Assembly: GCA_021298975.1 (NCBI GenBank)
Contig: JAJTGC010000049.1
Location: 1 to 36,326 of the forward strand
From: Oxalobacteraceae bacterium
GTDB taxonomy: Bacteria > Pseudomonadota > Gammaproteobacteria > Burkholderiales > Burkholderiaceae_D
DNA: 36,326 nt
Reading direction: 5' to 3'
This document shows, in pieces, positions 4,330 through 10,838 of the stretch; position 1 is the stretch's first letter, and the number at the start of each line of letters is the position of its first letter. Under the pieces are notes generated by a model, which ran no database searches, was not told the origin of the DNA, and worked only from the letters and a program-made list of their open reading frames with translations. The translations under genes and the position numbers were made by a program.

Positions 4330-5085
4330 ATGACCATAAAATCCCATATTGCCGACGGTATTGCGACACTCTCTTTTGATCGACCCGACAAAAAAAATGC
4401 GATCACTCGCGCGATGTACCAATCGCTGTCGGACGGGCTGACAACAGCAGCAAACGACAAGACCGTACGCGCTATCGTGATAACGGGCGAGGGCGGCATC
4501 TTCACCGCCGGTAATGATGTTGAAGAATTTCTGAAATATCCACCGCAACCCGGTGATTCGCACGTCACGCTGTTCATGGACGCGCTGCGTCATGCAGAAA
4601 AACCCGTGATCGCTTCAGTCAGCGGTATGGCAATCGGCATTGGTACGACCCTGCTCATGCATTGCGATCTGGTGTATGCCGCAGAGAATGCGCGCTTTGC
4701 GATGCCCTTCACTCAGCTGGGGCTGTGCCCCGAGTTTGCATCGAGTTGCCTGTTCCCTCGACTGGCAGGTTATCAGCGCGCAGCAGAAAAATTATTGCTC
4801 GGTGAAGCCTTCAAAGCAGATGAGGCGGTGCAGATGGGCCTGGTCAGCAAGGTAATGTCGGCAGATGACTTGCCTTCATTCGTTGCAGCACAAGCGGCGA
4901 AACTGGTAGCCCTGCCTGCGGAATCCCTGCGCATCACGAAGCAGTTGATGAAAAAAGATTTCTCAGTGGGCATCGATGCCGCGATGCAGGAGGAGTTGCA
5001 GCATTTCATGCGGCTGTTGCAAGGGCCGGATGCGAAGGAGGCCTTCTCGGCCTTTCTCGAGAAACGCAAGCCGGTCTTTTGCTGA
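4330..5085 (+). CDS. Enoyl-CoA hydratase/isomerase family protein, isomerase-like
   Basis: This is a 251-residue crotonase-fold protein. ITGEGGIFTAGNDVEEFL and SGMAIGIGTTLLMHCDLVYA form the CoA-binding and oxyanion regions. The two acidic residues of classical enoyl-CoA hydratase are not seen: the GGGCE position reads GTT, and the later site reads MPF. A Glu is present in LGLCPEFASSCLFPRL, the pattern of delta3,delta2-enoyl-CoA isomerases, which shift double bonds so that unsaturated acyl chains can enter beta-oxidation. An isomerase role is therefore more likely than hydration, by motif reasoning only. The ATG at 4330 has only a weak ribosome binding site. Its last 40 bases and its trailer are duplicated at 7589-7646, upstream of rnpB. 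Confidence 0.85.
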   Translation: MTIKSHIADGIATLSFDRPDKKNAITRAMYQSLSDGLTTAANDKTVRAIVITGEGGIFTAGNDVEEFLKYPPQPGDSHVTLFMDALRHAEKPVIASVSGMAIGIGTTLLMHCDLVYAAENARFAMPFTQLGLCPEFASSCLFPRLAGYQRAAEKLLLGEAFKADEAVQMGLVSKVMSADDLPSFVAAQAAKLVALPAESLRITKQLMKKDFSVGIDAAMQEELQHFMRLLQGPDAKEAFSAFLEKRKPVFC

Positions 5086-5090
5086 CCGGC
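5070..5090 (+). terminator. Hairpin across the stop codon of the hydratase/isomerase gene
   Basis: GCCGGTC (5070-5076) pairs perfectly with GACCGGC (5084-5090) around a 7-base loop that contains the start of the TGA stop. The stem is unchanged in the duplicate at 7612-7632 although the loop differs. No T-run follows, so intrinsic termination is uncertain. Confidence 0.4.
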
Positions 5091-5100
5091 CTGCTACCGA

Positions 5101-5150
5101 GCTTGCCCGGCAGGGAAACAGAATCCTGCCTATCGGTCTGCTTCACTTTA
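5101..5150 (+). pseudogene. Remnant of the rnpB 3' end
   Basis: From gcttgcccggcaggg through gaatcc..gcctatcggtctgcttcacttt, this stretch matches the last 46 bases of the intact rnpB (8005-8050) and its trailer with only a few differences. None of the 5' part of rnpB is present, so it cannot fold into RNase P RNA. It lies directly after the hydratase trailer, and its right end runs into the stop codon of the first LRR gene, just as intact rnpB does with the second. It is best read as what is left of a duplicated rnpB after an internal deletion. Confidence 0.85.
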
Positions 5151-7379
5151 TTGATTTCCTGGCAGGGGCGTGAAGGGCAAGACGGTATCGTAGATTTTTT
5201 TTGCGTCACCGGGGGCAAGATTATCTAGCGTGGCTTCGAATATCATTCGGTTGATTTCCCGCGTCAAAGGCGGTATGGCTCCGGGCACATTAGGCATCAG
5301 ATCTTGTCTGCGAGACATTACCGCACCCGCGAGTGTTGCCATGTTCCGCACCCGATTGCGTGTCGTAATATCACGAACTTTCTGAATGGCTTTATCCAAA
5401 GGAGAATACTCGATGTTGAGTATTCTTTGCGGGTCTTCGTTGGGACCAACAGTGAGGTTGAAGCTCAAGAGATTTTTATTGTCGCTCAGTTCGTTTGCCA
5501 GATTTTCAAGACCTTCGCTGGTATGGAATTCCTGGAATAAACGCTTAATACCAAACTCCATATCTAGATGATCATCAAACTTCATCTTTAAGTTCAGATG
5601 TTTGATTGAGTCATTATGTGCAAGTGAATGATTGATTGGTTTACCGGCACTGAGATTTTCGATGGTTAATGATTCAATTGATGTGCTCTTTGCGATGCTA
5701 TCTAATAGTTGCTCGTTTAAGCCATTTTCGCAGTCGGATAGCCGGATGAGAATTTCCCTTAATCCTTTGTTCGACAAGAACATGTCGCGAAGATGAGCGC
5801 TGGTATTAGTTCCCGTAAAATAAAATGCATTGTTATTGGCGTCCTCAAATACCTCCATACCCAGAAATTCCAGACTGGTATTCGCATCAAGTCCTACCTT
5901 AAGGCTTGCAATATTTTCAGGCGACAGCGCGCATGGAAAACGGAGGGCTGTTATCTGAGCGTTCGCCAACAATAATTTTCCGATGGGCTCGCCGATCGAA
6001 TTCAATTCCTGATTAGGTATTTTTGCTGTATTGAAATCAACTGATTTAATTGCGGGATGATAATAGATTGCATTGAGTAGCTGGGTCATCGCACCTAACG
6101 CAAGTGGACAGTCTTTTATTGATATCGAGCGTAACCTCTTGTTGTTATTCACCGCGTCCTGAAGCGCTTTGGTGCATGGCTCTAGGTTAGTCTGATCAAA
6201 TTTCAGTTCCTCTACAATCGGGCTCATGGCGACCCCCTTCAAAATGGCATTGATGAATGGGGCGCCATTGAGTCGTTTCAATGAGAGAGATTTGAGCGAT
6301 GGGTGTTTTTGTATGCATTGCACCAAGCGGTTCGCGTCATTGACGCTCACGAATGTCAGGGGCTTGTCCGGTGGCGCTGAAAAATCTATCCGTTCCAGAG
6401 ATTGTGATGCAAGCAGAGCTTCAATGACGGCCTGATCTATTTTCAGGGGTTTTGTATTATTTTGTTTGCTGATCCATTTGAATGATTTAATAGGGAGTTG
6501 ATGCTCCTGAAACACGGAAAACAAGCTACTCAGCTCTCCCGCCTTAGGCGGTTCTCCCAGATAAAAAATCTCCAAATCAAGAACAGCCACACTGGTGCGA
6601 ATTGCATCAAAGGTCGCTTTCAGTTCCTGGGGTTGCCAGACTTCGACAATAATTTTGGTCACCGTGGTCGGGCGGCGCAGTGTGTCGGCGAGTTCGATCA
6701 GATCGTCTGCTGTGGTGCTTCTGACAATCAATTCGGTTTTTCCGGCAACTTGGCTCAGCGCATAACGTCCGGTCGGGCTCGATCCTTCTCTTGACCGCAA
6801 AATGATGGACGGACGCTCGGTAGTAAAGCGAAAGTCGTGGAACGTTGGCGGTGTGGCGGGTAGACCGGGTGGTCCTGGCGGGTAGGCCTGGTTTGCAGAG
6901 AATGTAAAGGTTGCCTGGCTCGGTTCTGGCCAGACGTCGACGGCAGGTTGTTGGACATTTGTGATTGTGGGCGGCAATGGCGCGTGGGTATGGGTGCTTG
7001 CTCCCTGACCGGATGGTCCTGGCGGGTAGGGGTGGTTTGCAGAGAATGTGAAGAATGCCTGGCTCGGTTCTGGCCAGACGTCGACGGCAGGTTGTTGGAC
7101 ATTTGTGATTGTGGGCGGCAATGGCGCGTGGGTATGGGTGGTTACTCTCTGGCCGGGTGGTCCTGGCGGGTAGGCCTGGTTTGCCCAGAATGTGAAATAT
7201 GCCTGGTCCGGTACTTGCCAGACGGCGACGGCAGGCCGTTGTACGGTTGTCATCGTGGGTGGCAATGGCGCTTGCGGCCGGGTAGTTGCTTCCTGATTGG
7301 GGCTCCGGTTGAAAACCGGTATTTGAAAGATCTCTGGTTGCCGAGGTGGCTGGCCAGCGTCTGCTGTGCTTCGTTTCAT
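5148..7379 (-). CDS. Leucine-rich-repeat protein with proline-rich N-terminal repeats (copy A)
   Basis: This is a 743-residue protein of unknown function. Residues 1-36 are polar and Pro-rich (MKRSTADAGQPP). Residues 37-180 are three 48-residue repeats of the form APLPPT..VQ.PAV.VW..P.QA.FTF.AN..YPPGP. A segment with LIELADTLRR follows. Then come many irregular LRR units of the ribonuclease-inhibitor type (SLKSLSLKRLNG, RLRSISIKDCPL, SIESLTIENLSAG). A short helical end carries REINRMIFEATLDNL. There is no signal peptide or membrane segment. ATG at 7379 has AAAGGAA seven bases upstream (7387-7393), a spacing shared with copy B. Base composition is visibly more AT-rich than its neighbours. Such proteins can act in host interaction (for example as secreted effectors), but nothing here shows secretion. 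Confidence 0.8.
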   Translation of the reverse strand: MKRSTADAGQPPRQPEIFQIPVFNRSPNQEATTRPQAPLPPTMTTVQRPAVAVWQVPDQAYFTFWANQAYPPGPPGQRVTTHTHAPLPPTITNVQQPAVDVWPEPSQAFFTFSANHPYPPGPSGQGASTHTHAPLPPTITNVQQPAVDVWPEPSQATFTFSANQAYPPGPPGLPATPPTFHDFRFTTERPSIILRSREGSSPTGRYALSQVAGKTELIVRSTTADDLIELADTLRRPTTVTKIIVEVWQPQELKATFDAIRTSVAVLDLEIFYLGEPPKAGELSSLFSVFQEHQLPIKSFKWISKQNNTKPLKIDQAVIEALLASQSLERIDFSAPPDKPLTFVSVNDANRLVQCIQKHPSLKSLSLKRLNGAPFINAILKGVAMSPIVEELKFDQTNLEPCTKALQDAVNNNKRLRSISIKDCPLALGAMTQLLNAIYYHPAIKSVDFNTAKIPNQELNSIGEPIGKLLLANAQITALRFPCALSPENIASLKVGLDANTSLEFLGMEVFEDANNNAFYFTGTNTSAHLRDMFLSNKGLREILIRLSDCENGLNEQLLDSIAKSTSIESLTIENLSAGKPINHSLAHNDSIKHLNLKMKFDDHLDMEFGIKRLFQEFHTSEGLENLANELSDNKNLLSFNLTVGPNEDPQRILNIEYSPLDKAIQKVRDITTRNRVRNMATLAGAVMSRRQDLMPNVPGAIPPLTREINRMIFEATLDNLAPGDAKKIYDTVLPFTPLPGNQ
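6840..7271 (-). repeat. 144-bp in-frame tandem repeat (three copies) in LRR gene A
   Basis: Three units of 144 bp encode the 48-residue Pro-rich repeats; in gene order they span 7271-7128, 7127-6984 and 6983-6840. Bases 6913-6996 and 7057-7140 are identical over 84 bases, so the last expansion is recent. The paralogue at 8052-9971 has only one unit. Confidence 0.9.
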
Positions 7380-7588
7380 GGTTGAGTTCCTTTATCCCGA
7401 CAAGGGTGGGGGTGGTTGGCTTTCGGAATGGTGCCGATGGTTAACTTGCCGGTTGGTGTCCTCACTCCCTGACCAGTTCCCTTTTTTTCAACCCAATCTC
7501 ACGTGATTGCGCTTAATCCCCGACTTTATTAAAAAAAACTCACTTTCAGCACGGGATATCGCTTGACCGACAATTCGCGATCCTCTAA
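7380..7588. other. Leader of LRR gene A, ending in a copied half of the mraZ promoter
   Basis: The 5' leader of LRR gene A fills this stretch. Bases 7495-7588 match 10205-10299, the corresponding region between LRR gene B and mraZ. The last 26 bases (7563-7588, beginning ttgaccgacaattcgcg) are identical to 10274-10299, which carry the -35 region of the mraZ promoter. The match stops inside the -10 hexamer (taaagt there, taactc here). No promoter for the LRR gene can be called with confidence. Confidence 0.75.
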
Positions 7589-7646
7589 CTCGGCATTTCT
7601 CGAGGAGCGCAAGCCGGTCTTTCGCCGACCGGCCTGCTACCGGGCT
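7589..7646 (+). pseudogene. Duplicated 3' fragment of the enoyl-CoA hydratase/isomerase gene
   Basis: These 58 bases match 5046-5103, the end of the hydratase/isomerase gene and its trailer, with six mismatches. The frame still reads AFLEERKPVF, against AFLEKRKPVFC in the intact gene. The stop codon is changed, but the GCCGGTC/GACCGGC hairpin is kept. It lies just upstream of the rnpB promoter. This suggests that the ancestral order was hydratase, rnpB, LRR gene, mraZ, and that this is the second hydratase end created by tandem duplication. Confidence 0.88.
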
Positions 7647-7689
7647 CATCGTCGGAACCCGAGTCAGACCCCTATGGTCGTCTACGGAT

Positions 7690-7695
7690 TACAAT
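7690..7695 (+). promoter_or_regulatory. Probable -10 box of rnpB
   Basis: TACAAT ends six bases before 7702, the first base of the P1 helix of RNase P RNA, which is a standard spacing. No convincing -35 hexamer is seen at the right distance; tcagac at 7664-7669 is the nearest weak candidate. Confidence 0.5.
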
Positions 7696-7701
7696 GCGGG
7701 C

Positions 7702-8050
7702 GTGAAGCAGACCAGACAGTCGCTGGCGCAGCAATGCGCGGGAGGAAGGTCCGGACTCCATAGAGCAGGGTGACGGCTAACGACCGTCCGCCGTGAGGCG
7801 CGGAATAGGGCCACAGAGACGAGTCTTTGGGACCAGCGAGTGGCGAAAGTCACTCGTTTGCGTCCCAAAGGGTGAAACGCGGTAACCTCCACTCGGAGCA
7901 ATCTCAAATAGGCACGCGTTGATGCTGCTCGCTGAGCGTGCGGGTAGAGAGCTTGAGCCCCCGAGTAATTGGGGGCCTAGAGGAATGACTGTCATCTCTG
8001 CCGGGCTTGCCCGACAGGGACACAGAATCCGGCCTATCGGTCTGCTTCAC
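7702..8050 (+). ncRNA. rnpB: RNase P RNA (bacterial type A)
   Basis: This is the catalytic RNA of RNase P, which removes 5' leaders from tRNA precursors. The ends pair perfectly: gtgaagcagacc (7702-7713) with ggtctgcttcac (8039-8050) form helix P1. The conserved core is present: ccagacagtcgc near the 5' end, ggaggaaggtccggactcc (7741-7759), catagagcagggtg, agaggaatgactgtc (7979-7993) and cacagaatccggc near the 3' end. The predicted length is 349 bases. It lies between two LRR paralogues transcribed towards and away from it; the stop codon of LRR gene B is one base beyond the RNA's 3' end. It appears to be the only complete copy here, since the other has shrunk to the remnant at 5101-5150. Confidence 0.96.
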
Positions 8051-8051
8051 T

Positions 8052-9971
8052 TTACTGATTTGCGGGTGGGTGCGTGAAGGGCGATATCGCCTCGTAAACC
8101 CTCTGGGCGTCTTCAAACGAAAGATTATCCATTGCCGCGTCAAATAGCATCTGGTTCATTTCGACTGGCAGAGTGGGCAGGGCTCTCGGCTCATCACGCT
8201 GCAGATCTTGCATGACGGACATTCCTATAGCAGCTTGTAGGTTCTTCATCCGCAGCCGGTTATGTGTCGTGACATCGTGAATTTTGAGAATGGCCCGATT
8301 GAGATCGCCAAACCAGCCCATTAGCATATCGTACTGATCACCCCTGGGATCAAGAATGAGACTGAAGTTCAACAGATTTTTGTGATGGCTTAGGTTGTCG
8401 GCAATCTGATGCATAGTCTGTGTAAATGCATCTCTATTCGTACTGCCGATTGCGCGCATTTTTAATTTCAGATGTTTGATGTGCGCAATATCCGGCAGTA
8501 CATCGCTAACCAGCTGAATTTTTAAAATATTTTCGATGGTTAATGATTCGATCGAAGGCATCTTCGCTATGGCTTTCAATAATTGCTTGTCCGTACCATT
8601 TTGTGATGCAGTCAGCCCAATGACAATTTCCCGTAACCCTTTGTTCGCTTTGAACATGTTTTCAAGGTTCTTGCTGGTATCGGTTTGCGTAATCTGAGCT
8701 GGGTAGGATGTGGTGTCTTGCATCGCATCCATTCTTAGCGATGTCAGGTGAGTATTTGCAGTAAGCCCAACTGTCAGAGATGTGATATTGGTGGGTGATA
8801 AGGCGCATTGACAGTGGAGGGTTTTGATCTGCGAATTCGTCACAAGCAATTCCGCGATGGGTTCGCCGATCAATAGCAATTCCTCGGTAGGTATTTTTGC
8901 CGTTCTAAAATCAAGCGATTCCAATGCGGGATGACCCTGCATACATTTGAGCATCTGGCTCATCGAACCAGATTCAAGTCGGCAGTCTTTTATTGATATT
9001 GAGCGTAATTGCTTGTTGTTGCTAACCGATACTTGAAGCGCTGTTGTGTTCGACGCCAGATTAGTCTGATTAAAATGCATGTCCTCAATGACCGCGCTGT
9101 GGGCTATACCCTGCAAAATAGCGTCAATGAATGCGCTTCCTTCGATCCCTTTCAATGACAGAGACCTGAGCGATTGGTGTTTTGCCACGCAAAGTGTCAA
9201 ATGCCCAGGATTATTGATATTCACGGATACTGCATGATCACCTCGTGGTACTAAAAAATGGATCTTTTCAAGAAGTTGAGATCTCAGCAGTGCTTCGAAA
9301 ACAAATTGATCAATTTGATGCGGCTTCGAATTACTTCGGGTGCTGATCCATTGGAAAGATTTGATAGGAGCTTGTCGTTCATGAAGACATGAAAACACGC
9401 TATTAAGCACGCTCCGCTCAGGCATCGGCCCCTGGAAATCAACCTCGATATCAAGAACGGACAGGCTCGTGCGAATGGCATCAAAGGTGGCTTTCAACTC
9501 CTGCGGGTCGCGTGTAGCGATGATGATTTTGCTCACCTTTGTCTGCTGGCGCAGTGTATCGGCAAGTTCGCTCAGATCGGCTGGTGTGGCGAGTTTGACA
9601 GTCAGCTGAGTTTGTTCAGCCACCTGGTTGCGTGTGTAACGTCCAGACGAACCCGGTCGTGCTGTTGACGACGAATTACCACTCGGAGGCCCGTTTACAA
9701 GCCGCATGTTGTGGGATGCCGGCACCGGCGTGGCGGGCAGGCCACGTGTTCCGGGCGGGTAGGCTTGATTCGCTGAAAATGTGAAGAACGCCGGGTGCGG
9801 TTGAGGCCAGGCAGCAATCGGAGGCCGTTGGACCGTTGCCATCGTCGGGGGTAAAGGCGCGGGTGGAGGGGGTGGCGGCTGAATGGCCGGCAGGTTGAAG
9901 ACCGGTATCGCGGGTATCTGTAACGGACGCTGGGCGGGCGGTCGGTCAGCATCTGATGCACTTCGTTTCAT
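8052..9971 (-). CDS. Leucine-rich-repeat protein with proline-rich N-terminus (copy B)
   Basis: This 639-residue paralogue of the 5148-7379 gene has the same plan. It begins MKRSASDADRPP, followed by a run of prolines, one Pro-rich unit (about residues 38-80: APLPPTMATVQ..FTFSANQAYPPG), LSELADTLRQQTKVSK, irregular LRRs (SLRSLSLKGIEG, LRSISIKDCRL, SIESLTIENI) and a helical end with EMNQMLFDAAMDNL. The ATG at 9971 is chosen over the in-frame ATG at 10037 because it aligns with the paralogue's start and has AAAGGAA seven bases upstream (9979-9985). There is no signal peptide or membrane segment. Its stop lies one base from the 3' end of rnpB, so the genes converge. Function is unknown; an effector-like or protein-binding role is possible. 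Confidence 0.8.
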   Translation of the reverse strand: MKRSASDADRPPAQRPLQIPAIPVFNLPAIQPPPPPPAPLPPTMATVQRPPIAAWPQPHPAFFTFSANQAYPPGTRGLPATPVPASHNMRLVNGPPSGNSSSTARPGSSGRYTRNQVAEQTQLTVKLATPADLSELADTLRQQTKVSKIIIATRDPQELKATFDAIRTSLSVLDIEVDFQGPMPERSVLNSVFSCLHERQAPIKSFQWISTRSNSKPHQIDQFVFEALLRSQLLEKIHFLVPRGDHAVSVNINNPGHLTLCVAKHQSLRSLSLKGIEGSAFIDAILQGIAHSAVIEDMHFNQTNLASNTTALQVSVSNNKQLRSISIKDCRLESGSMSQMLKCMQGHPALESLDFRTAKIPTEELLLIGEPIAELLVTNSQIKTLHCQCALSPTNITSLTVGLTANTHLTSLRMDAMQDTTSYPAQITQTDTSKNLENMFKANKGLREIVIGLTASQNGTDKQLLKAIAKMPSIESLTIENILKIQLVSDVLPDIAHIKHLKLKMRAIGSTNRDAFTQTMHQIADNLSHHKNLLNFSLILDPRGDQYDMLMGWFGDLNRAILKIHDVTTHNRLRMKNLQAAIGMSVMQDLQRDEPRALPTLPVEMNQMLFDAAMDNLSFEDAQRVYEAISPFTHPPANQ

Positions 9972-10273
9972 GGGTGGGTTCCTTTGTTCGGGGAAGGGGT
10001 GTCGGCGGTTCGTTTTCAGCAAGATCTCAATCTTCAATGCGCTCGTTGGTGCCGATTGTTTCGCACCGGTTCCTTCATACCGTCCGAACCTTGTCGTATC
10101 TGAACGAGAAGCCGCGCTCGCATAAACACATGTGTATTACTCAGGTTCTACTTTCACTTGTGCATCTAAGTCCTTCATTTCTCAAGGCTATTCTTCTTCA
10201 GCCTAATCTCAAGTAGTTGCGCTAAGTCCTTGACTTTATTGAAAAAAATCTCACTTTCAGTGTGGGATATTCC
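9972..10273. other. Divergent intergenic region, LRR gene B / mraZ, upstream half
   Basis: This is non-coding leader of LRR gene B. The ribosome binding site is at 9979-9985 on the minus strand. Bases 10205 onward are shared with the leader of LRR gene A; the stretch closer to the gene has diverged. I see no confident promoter, terminator or ORF in 9990-10204. Confidence 0.6.
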
Positions 10274-10302
10274 TTGACCGACAATTCGCGATCCTCTAAA
10301 GT
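10274..10302 (+). promoter_or_regulatory. Promoter of the dcw operon (upstream of mraZ)
   Basis: TTGACC (10274-10279) and TAAAGT (10297-10302) are separated by 17 bases, a good sigma-70 arrangement. Transcription would start near 10309, inside the MraZ box array. The -35 part is duplicated exactly at 7563, but without a matching -10. Confidence 0.6.
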
Positions 10303-10340
10303 GGGCGTCAGTGTGAGAAAGTGTCTTTTTGTGGGAAAAG
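10301..10340 (+). promoter_or_regulatory. MraZ operator: four boxes at 10-bp spacing
   Basis: Four direct repeats stand in exact 10-base register: gtgggcgtca, gtgtgagaaa, gtgtcttttt, gtgggaaaag. The first and last have the GTGGG core known for MraZ binding sites; the middle two are degenerate GTGT forms. The array begins in the -10 hexamer and covers the expected transcription start. Binding by MraZ should therefore repress its own operon, as known in other bacteria. The assignment rests on the sequence and spacing. Confidence 0.75.
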
Positions 10341-10409
10341 TTTCTCTTTTTTCAGCAAACAGGCATCACGGTTGTTCGAAATGTTTTAGCGATCGAGGAG
10401 GCAGGCGAG

Positions 10410-10838
10410 GTGTATCAGGGTGCGTCGGCATTGAGCATGGATGCAAAGGGACGGATGTCGATTCCGGCCCGGCATCGTGACGCGCTCGCGCTGCAGAGCG
10501 AAGGCCGCGTCACGCTGACCAAACACCCGCATGGTTGTCTTTTGTTATTCCCCCGTCCCGTCTGGGAAATCCATCGTGAACAAATTGCCGCCTGGCCGAT
10601 GTCGGCCCGGGCGTGGCAGCGCATTTTTCTGGGCAATGCCAGCGATGTCGAGATGGACAGTGCAGGACGCATTCTGATTGCGCCGGAGTTGCGTGTGGCG
10701 GCCGGCATGTCGCGCGAGGTGATGTTGCTGGGCATGGGCAGTCATTTTGAAGTCTGGGATGCCGCGAAACTCGAAGAGAGCGAATCCCAGGCGATTGCCG
10801 TCGGCATGCCGGACGTACTAAACAACTTTTCTTTCTGA
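10410..10838 (+). CDS. mraZ: MraZ transcriptional regulator
   Basis: MraZ is a DNA-binding protein of the AbrB/MazE-like fold that controls the dcw operon from TGGG-type repeats in front of its own gene. The start is GTG at 10410, giving [24 protein letters not shown], the family's characteristic beginning (usually M-F-x-G). GAGGAG lies nine bases upstream. Length is 142 residues, the usual size. The second half repeats the fold with [21 protein letters not shown] longer ORF from TTG 10329 would run through the operator and adds nothing conserved, so it is rejected. It is the first gene of the dcw operon. Confidence 0.93.

Follow-up and report, generated by a model that had tools for sequence, protein, structure and literature searches.

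Two divergent leucine-rich-repeat genes in a tandem locus around the RNase P RNA gene of an Oxalobacteraceae bacterium

The window analysed here is a stretch of 36,326 nucleotides, one whole contig (JAJTGC010000049.1) of the 2.69-Mb assembly GCA_021298975.1 of an Oxalobacteraceae bacterium (88.6% complete, hereafter G000). Between an enoyl-CoA hydratase gene and mraZ it harbours two collinear tandem units, each consisting of a hydratase end, sequence of the RNase P RNA gene rnpB, an antisense gene for a predicted leucine-rich-repeat (LRR) protein and an mraZ promoter. The two LRR genes, A and B, appear to be older than the flanks duplicated with them, and we favour, without regarding it as proven, a history in which two older alleles were brought together at this place. 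A literature search covering titles and the openings of abstracts found no work on this locus.

Anatomy of the tandem locus

Unit 1 (5046-7588) comprises, in this order, the hydratase end, an rnpB remnant, LRR gene A with its leader and a copy of the mraZ promoter, matched in unit 2 (7589-10299) by a copy of the hydratase end, a complete rnpB, LRR gene B with its leader and the mraZ promoter. An earlier sequence-only reading had named these segments, and all were found at, or a few bases from, the positions it gave, the start of rnpB moving from 7702 to 7704. As that reading had anticipated, alignment of 5046-7588 with 7589-10299 is collinear also outside the LRR genes, with scores of 46 for the hydratase end, 47 for the rnpB tail and 70 for leader plus promoter, far above the respective maxima of 15, 14 and 15 among 100 dinucleotide shuffles per segment. 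The hydratase ends (5046-5103 and 7589-7646) are identical at 52 of 58 positions, and the copy at 7589-7646 (plus strand) has lost its stop codon, CGA standing in place of TGA. The mraZ promoter region of unit 2 (10194-10302, plus strand) carries TTGACC, 17 nt and TAAAGT at 10274-10302; its copy in unit 1 (7484-7588, plus strand), broken within the -10 box, is 84% identical to 10194-10299.

The complete rnpB (7704-8052, plus strand), a bacterial class A RNase P RNA gene, spans positions 1-367 of the RF00010 model with 241.8 bits against a gathering score of 100, and is the only RNase P RNA match in the 88.6% complete G000 assembly. The loss of most of the first rnpB was borne out, its 3' tail alone remaining: the remnant (5094-5148, plus strand; blastn 90.9% over 55 nt) corresponds to rnpB positions 295-349, is identical to its counterpart in unit 2 (7998-8052) at 50 of 55 positions, and falls below the RF00010 gathering score in cmscan, not being a complete RNA. 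It had been listed by the sequence-only reading, which placed its start differently; the remnant begins inside a deletion scar (5094-5103), so that the hydratase and rnpB blocks overlap there. PIN_5 (PF08745), which we take to be the model for protein-only RNase P, was found in none of the 21 genomes surveyed in the genus, G000 included, and in 4 of 14 controls.

LRR gene A (5148-7379, minus strand) is an open frame of 743 aa, its stop codon lying where the rnpB remnant ends. LRR gene B (8052-9971, minus strand), of 639 aa, likewise stops at the 3' end of the complete rnpB; the ATG at 9971 is our choice of start and the most likely one. The left neighbour of the locus is the enoyl-CoA hydratase/isomerase gene itself (4330-5085, plus strand, 251 aa; Pfam ECH_1, 1.7e-54), and the right neighbour is mraZ (10410-10838, plus strand; Pfam MraZ, 9.1e-27, in the frame 10329-10838), the first gene of the dcw cluster.

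Both joints proved readable, as claimed, and were resolved to the base. At the first (J1, 7588/7589) the mraZ promoter is fused to the last hydratase codons with no microhomology, GATCCTCTAA being followed directly by CTCGGCATTT; the intact mraZ promoter goes on with AGTGGG, and the intact hydratase reads GCCTT ahead of CTCGGC. The second (J2) is the scar at 5094-5103 of a 361-bp deletion in unit 1, where the hydratase tail passes into the rnpB tail via CTACCGAGCT; the equivalent parental 10-mers in unit 2, CTACCGGGCT (7637-7646) and CTGCCGGGCT (7998-8007), are 9/10 identical. The locus thereby provides a base-level example of an essential RNA gene that was doubled and pared to one copy, with both adjoining protein genes still open.

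The joints also bear on a possible assembly artefact, in which the haplotypes of two strains would have been joined in one contig. Contigs of the genus do break in rnpB (G003, G006, G016) or look mis-joined (G020, at a 141-nt block), but the joined sequences share nothing at J1 and just 10 nt at J2, too short for assembler overlaps. The hydratase copy without its stop codon and the altered promoter copy, moreover, bear the signs of DNA that has fallen out of use, and an artefact is very unlikely. A different explanation starts from the remnant, 55 bp of rnpB 3' sequence separated from the full gene by LRR A: it would be a displaced attachment site (att) left by a mobile element that integrated site-specifically at the rnpB 3' end. 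This genomic-island reading was set aside as scarcely plausible: a displaced fragment should lie downstream of the full gene, whereas this one is upstream; the duplication takes in the hydratase end and the mraZ promoter as well; the sole long frame between remnant and rnpB is LRR A, without a match to any integrase family; and a tblastn search of plasmids and phages with LRR B gave no match at E 1e-5.

Relative ages of the LRR genes and their flanks

The proteins encoded by LRR A and LRR B are 49% identical, and LRR B is 77% identical to the product of the gene at the same place in a relative, G006. Synonymous divergence (dS) between A and B amounts to 1.04, with a ratio of nonsynonymous to synonymous divergence (dN/dS) of 0.38; against the G006 gene, dS is 1.05 for LRR A and 0.31 for LRR B. 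Among the neighbouring genes, dS of mraZ is 0.28 between G000 and G006 and 0.39 between G000 and G018, and that of the hydratase is 0.54 between G000 and G018. As the A-B value exceeds those separating G000 from both relatives, the A-B split is the older one, unless LRR A alone evolved several-fold faster at synonymous sites. The description of the LRR gene as fast-evolving holds in protein terms (dN/dS 0.36-0.40 vs 0.04-0.08 for mraZ and hydratase), but the high dS means that the split is also old. Leader identity is 62% between LRR A and B and 92% between LRR B and G006, and the old divergence therefore spans the gene plus its leader.

The duplicated flanks differ at 5 of 51 unambiguous positions in the hydratase end and 16 of 105 in the promoter copy (10-15%). 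One free lineage of the A-B age evolving at the synonymous rate would be expected to carry about 19 and 39 changes, respectively, so that both flanks are too similar for that age (P 8.5e-6 and 4.5e-7). Of 44 promoter columns that do not vary in 14 other sequences, 7 are altered in the unit 1 copy (P 0.0016 at the synonymous rate). The corresponding leave-one-out count is 0 in G006, G002 and G018 and in eight of eleven further rows, and 1, 2, 3 and 4 in G007, G012, G004 and G014, the maximum being 4/48 in G014.

A simple tandem duplication would give the same age throughout. The sequence-only reading had derived both LRR genes from one such duplication followed by decay only, and this history is not supported in that form, given a dS of 1.04 set against 5/51 and 16/105 in the flanks, an outcome that hangs on the rate calibration. 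Tandem duplication followed by deletion between short direct repeats is a known process, and the locus shares with it the collinear direct units and the 361-bp J2 deletion between 10-mers; it departs from the plain form in that the two LRR genes look older than their flanks.

Another explanation dates the whole duplication back. An old in-place tandem duplication might have preceded the split from G006 and G018, after which the LRR copies diverged, the first rnpB copy was lost late and the relatives lost the extra unit. If the flanks evolved as slowly as the LRR B leader (G000-G006, about 0.27x synonymous), their divergence fits such an old event: with one lineage, P is 0.35 for the hydratase end, 0.82 for the promoter and 0.81 for the 7-of-44 count, and with two lineages the count still gives P 0.16, the hydratase end (P 0.011) and the promoter (P 0.027) being weakly too similar. 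Functional mraZ promoters of relatives are 4-10% different at mraZ dS 0.28-0.39 and 17-31% different at mraZ dS of at least 0.9; the 15% of the promoter copy falls between, and comes near the value that a constrained copy of the A-B age would be expected to reach. A high A-B dS runs through all five segments (0.71-1.37), so that there is no patchwork, and in the gene tree LRR A is sister of (B, G006), with ultrafast bootstrap (UFBoot)/SH-aLRT support of 88/81, a topology that agrees with both an import and an old duplication. At the synonymous rate, on the other hand, the hydratase-end copy and the truncated promoter have changed too little for an old duplication, and G018, with a single rnpB and no LRR gene there, would need extra losses. 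We regard an old in-place duplication as possible rather than probable.

Proposed additive import of a divergent allele

The history that we favour, and to which we give an even chance, is that a divergent allele was integrated additively beside the resident one, in a manner resembling homology-facilitated illegitimate recombination (HFIR), and that the J2 deletion followed. DNA of a relative carrying the rnpB 3' part, LRR A and an mraZ promoter would have entered the cell and paired with the resident chromosome through conserved rnpB or hydratase sequence at one end, the other end being joined illegitimately to the resident hydratase end at J1. The resident rnpB, LRR B and mraZ would have been left intact behind the insert, and the later 361-bp deletion between 10-bp repeats would have removed the first rnpB save its tail. 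If the homologous exchange took place in rnpB, the resident DNA duplicated would reach no further than from the hydratase end to rnpB, so that both hydratase ends would be resident and young, and LRR A foreign and old. ComEC, the DNA-uptake channel, scores over cut-off in 20 of the 21 genomes, including G000.

HFIR has been reported from S. pneumoniae, A. baylyi and P. stutzeri, with junctions mostly of 3-10 bp microhomology and accompanied by deletion (PMC3240628). The proposed history shares with it one end made by homology, another made illegitimately and the gain of a foreign stretch; of these, the illegitimate junction is seen as J1, and we infer the homologous end and the foreign origin. 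Our history is read from one sequence and not from an observed event, and the locus would duplicate resident sequence instead of deleting it.

Several observations weigh against an import, to which the slow-rate tests and the 15% promoter divergence described above have to be added. J1 lacks microhomology, unlike most HFIR junctions. No donor was found, and the promoter copy gives no clear donor signal: of the four columns where the unit 2 and G006 promoters differ by a base, it agrees with G006 at three and with unit 2 at one. G+C content at third codon positions (GC3) is the same in LRR A (0.510) and LRR B (0.518). G006 cannot date the event, as its contig starts inside rnpB and no hydratase was found for it at E<=1e-60, and all genomes compared are metagenome-type assemblies, available at the assembly level only.

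A two-step variant would reach the same arrangement by well-known means, a recent tandem duplication being followed by replacement of one LRR copy with a divergent allele through homologous recombination across the rnpB and mraZ flanks. It would explain young hydratase ends together with an old LRR split, and the cassette does lie between two conserved arms; it requires, however, two events where one additive integration suffices, and here too no donor was seen, for which reasons we consider it improbable. The history of the locus appears more interesting than that of a plain duplication.

The LRR proteins

Neither Pfam nor NCBIfam gave a usable LRR call for LRR A or B, a weak Pfam LRR match (E 0.15) appearing in one of six family members, and the LRR assignment follows from a profile match to solved structures together with the predicted fold. 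A family profile built from six rows found ribonuclease inhibitor as its best match among solved structures (PDB 3tsr, 1.9e-11, hmmsearch). The AlphaFold model of LRR B, built on a two-sequence alignment with a mean pLDDT of 64.5 overall, shows disordered, proline-rich residues 1-110, a horseshoe at about 112-552 and then low-confidence helices. In Foldseek it matches ribonuclease inhibitor (4per, 2.4e-8, TM-score 0.42/0.56), and its best fold matches, none with more than a modest TM-score, are to the LRR chains of a mouse cytoplasmic-lattice entry, to ribonuclease inhibitor and to NLR proteins; giant-virus LRR and F-box proteins also match, as expected for the fold.

On these models, LRR A and B are predicted to be ribonuclease-inhibitor-like horseshoe proteins, and the fold suggests that the horseshoe probably binds a partner. 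They share with ribonuclease inhibitor (3tsr, 4per) the profile and fold match and the alternating strands and helices, and differ from it in being bacterial and in having a proline-rich disordered N-terminus and a conserved C-terminal stretch. The neighbouring rnpB encodes an RNA, and the binding of a ribonuclease by LRR A or B would be hypothetical; a functional pair of ribonuclease inhibitor and RNase P was considered, and nothing was found to support it.

Two further functional readings were examined. An LP-E motif near the LRR C-terminus resembles an F-box by eye only, and no Pfam F-box was found in the six members at E up to 10, a search in which filters drop most matches above 0.1. A role as type III secreted effectors is not supported in G000 (88.6% complete), where the best type III secretin (TIGR02516) match, 138 bits, stays under the cut-off of 238; the secretin is over cut-off in 4 of the 21 genomes (G002, G007, G008, G016), only G016 being among the six LRR carriers.

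The proline-rich N-terminal part of LRR A contains three in-frame 144-bp tandem repeats of 48 aa each (6863-7294, minus strand), a triplication absent from the earlier description; the repeat occurs as a single copy in LRR B at 9740-9883. The first two copies share 135 of 144 positions (94% in DNA), from which it follows that local duplication is still going on. GC3 of five LRR genes (0.48-0.52) is lower than that of four neighbouring genes (0.62-0.68).

The rnpB surroundings across the genus

Among the 21 genomes of this genus, an uncultured one of the Burkholderiales, the LRR family (profile A1, E<1e-20) occurs in six, always beside rnpB and on the opposite strand: twice in G000, in G006, G009 and G016, twice in G020, and as decayed pieces in G001. 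Weaker matches away from rnpB in four others (G017, G010, G018, G002; E 1e-10 to 1e-4) are taken for generic LRR similarity. The hydratase-rnpB interval, assembled in 12 genomes, exceeds 1 kb in four (G000, G007, G016, G020), and that from rnpB to the mraZ promoter, assembled in 16, does so in five (G000, G006, G009, G017, G019). The single-copy order hydratase-rnpB-LRR-mraZ, which had been expected in relatives, is complete in G009, where the LRR protein is only 21-23% identical, and displayed from inside rnpB onward in G006. G016 has its LRR gene between hydratase and rnpB; G018 reads hydratase-rnpB-mraZ, with no LRR gene there and a single, clean rnpB that lies some 213 bp away from the mraZ promoter. 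Other genes may occupy these positions: a Fic-domain protein (PF02661, 3.3e-7) lies between hydratase and rnpB in G007 (L040, 6255-7643), and the rnpB-mraZ slot of G017 and G019 (L050, L052) holds a CIA30-domain protein, with in G019 also a helix-turn-helix (HTH) protein (Pfam), to which a frame in G017 is similar by eye.

The presence of the family at rnpB in 6 of 21 genomes, on either side of it, identifies a recurrent variable slot, which is occupied by an antisense LRR gene in some species and is empty or filled with other genes elsewhere. The sequence-only reading saw the two LRR genes correctly and missed this genus-wide slot. Variable gene slots between conserved genes are a familiar pattern, shared here in the conserved flanks (rnpB, mraZ/dcw) and the patchy cargo between them; this slot is set apart by its position beside rnpB and by one fast-diverging LRR family whose strong members were found nowhere else in the 21 genomes.

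More speculatively, and in our judgement rather unlikely as a whole, the rnpB surroundings might be a cassette-exchange locus for a rapidly diversifying, ribonuclease-inhibitor-like LRR recognition protein, with rnpB as a homology arm for allele import and the window catching an allele pair after additive import, its spare ribozyme pared. Cycles of duplication and trimming would then explain why the LRR gene lies on either side of rnpB between species, and if allele import is true, conserved housekeeping RNA genes can serve as homology arms for cargo exchange without integrases.

Outside the genus, 12 stretches around rnpB contain mraZ in 5 and the hydratase in 0, the G022 stretch not covering the mraZ side. 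An even sample of 245 genomes across the family contained just two from other genera (G060, G139) that match the LRR family at 1e-6, the best at 2.6e-9.

Two apparent duplicates in the genus were set aside. G020 (L053) has rnpB pieces at 6836-7094 and 9447-9713, both without the 5' half, flanking a second hydratase end, only 77-78% identical to its first, and a different LRR gene. A single 141-nt rnpB block (140/141 identical) adjoins each of the two joins. A value of 141 is a common largest assembler k-mer, and the double rnpB of G020 is probably an assembly chimera. Over 1.9 kb, contig C134 of G002 shows 98% identity to G018, and 38 of 349 positions differ between its hydratase end and the one on contig C27; C134, probably foreign to the G002 bin, was kept as a G018-like row in the dS, hydratase-end, leader and promoter comparisons.

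As to rnpB itself, it is full-length in 15 genomes, cut by a contig end in three (G003, G006, G016), internally deleted in G017, and present as the two 5'-truncated copies in G020; none was found in G005. That the G003, G016 and G006 contigs (L037, L049, L039) all break inside the gene would be expected of an rnpB that is repeated or varies between strains, or whose surroundings do. The sole rnpB found in G017 (96% complete; L050, 6289-6023) lacks about 80 nt near its 3' end, a deletion that takes out the conserved ACAGAA stretch; neither another rnpB nor a PIN_5 protein was found in that genome, and an intact copy is probably absent from the assembly. A further tandem duplication, of ~80 bp, lies in the mraZ promoter region of G008 (L041, 5961-6167 of the reverse-complemented stretch).

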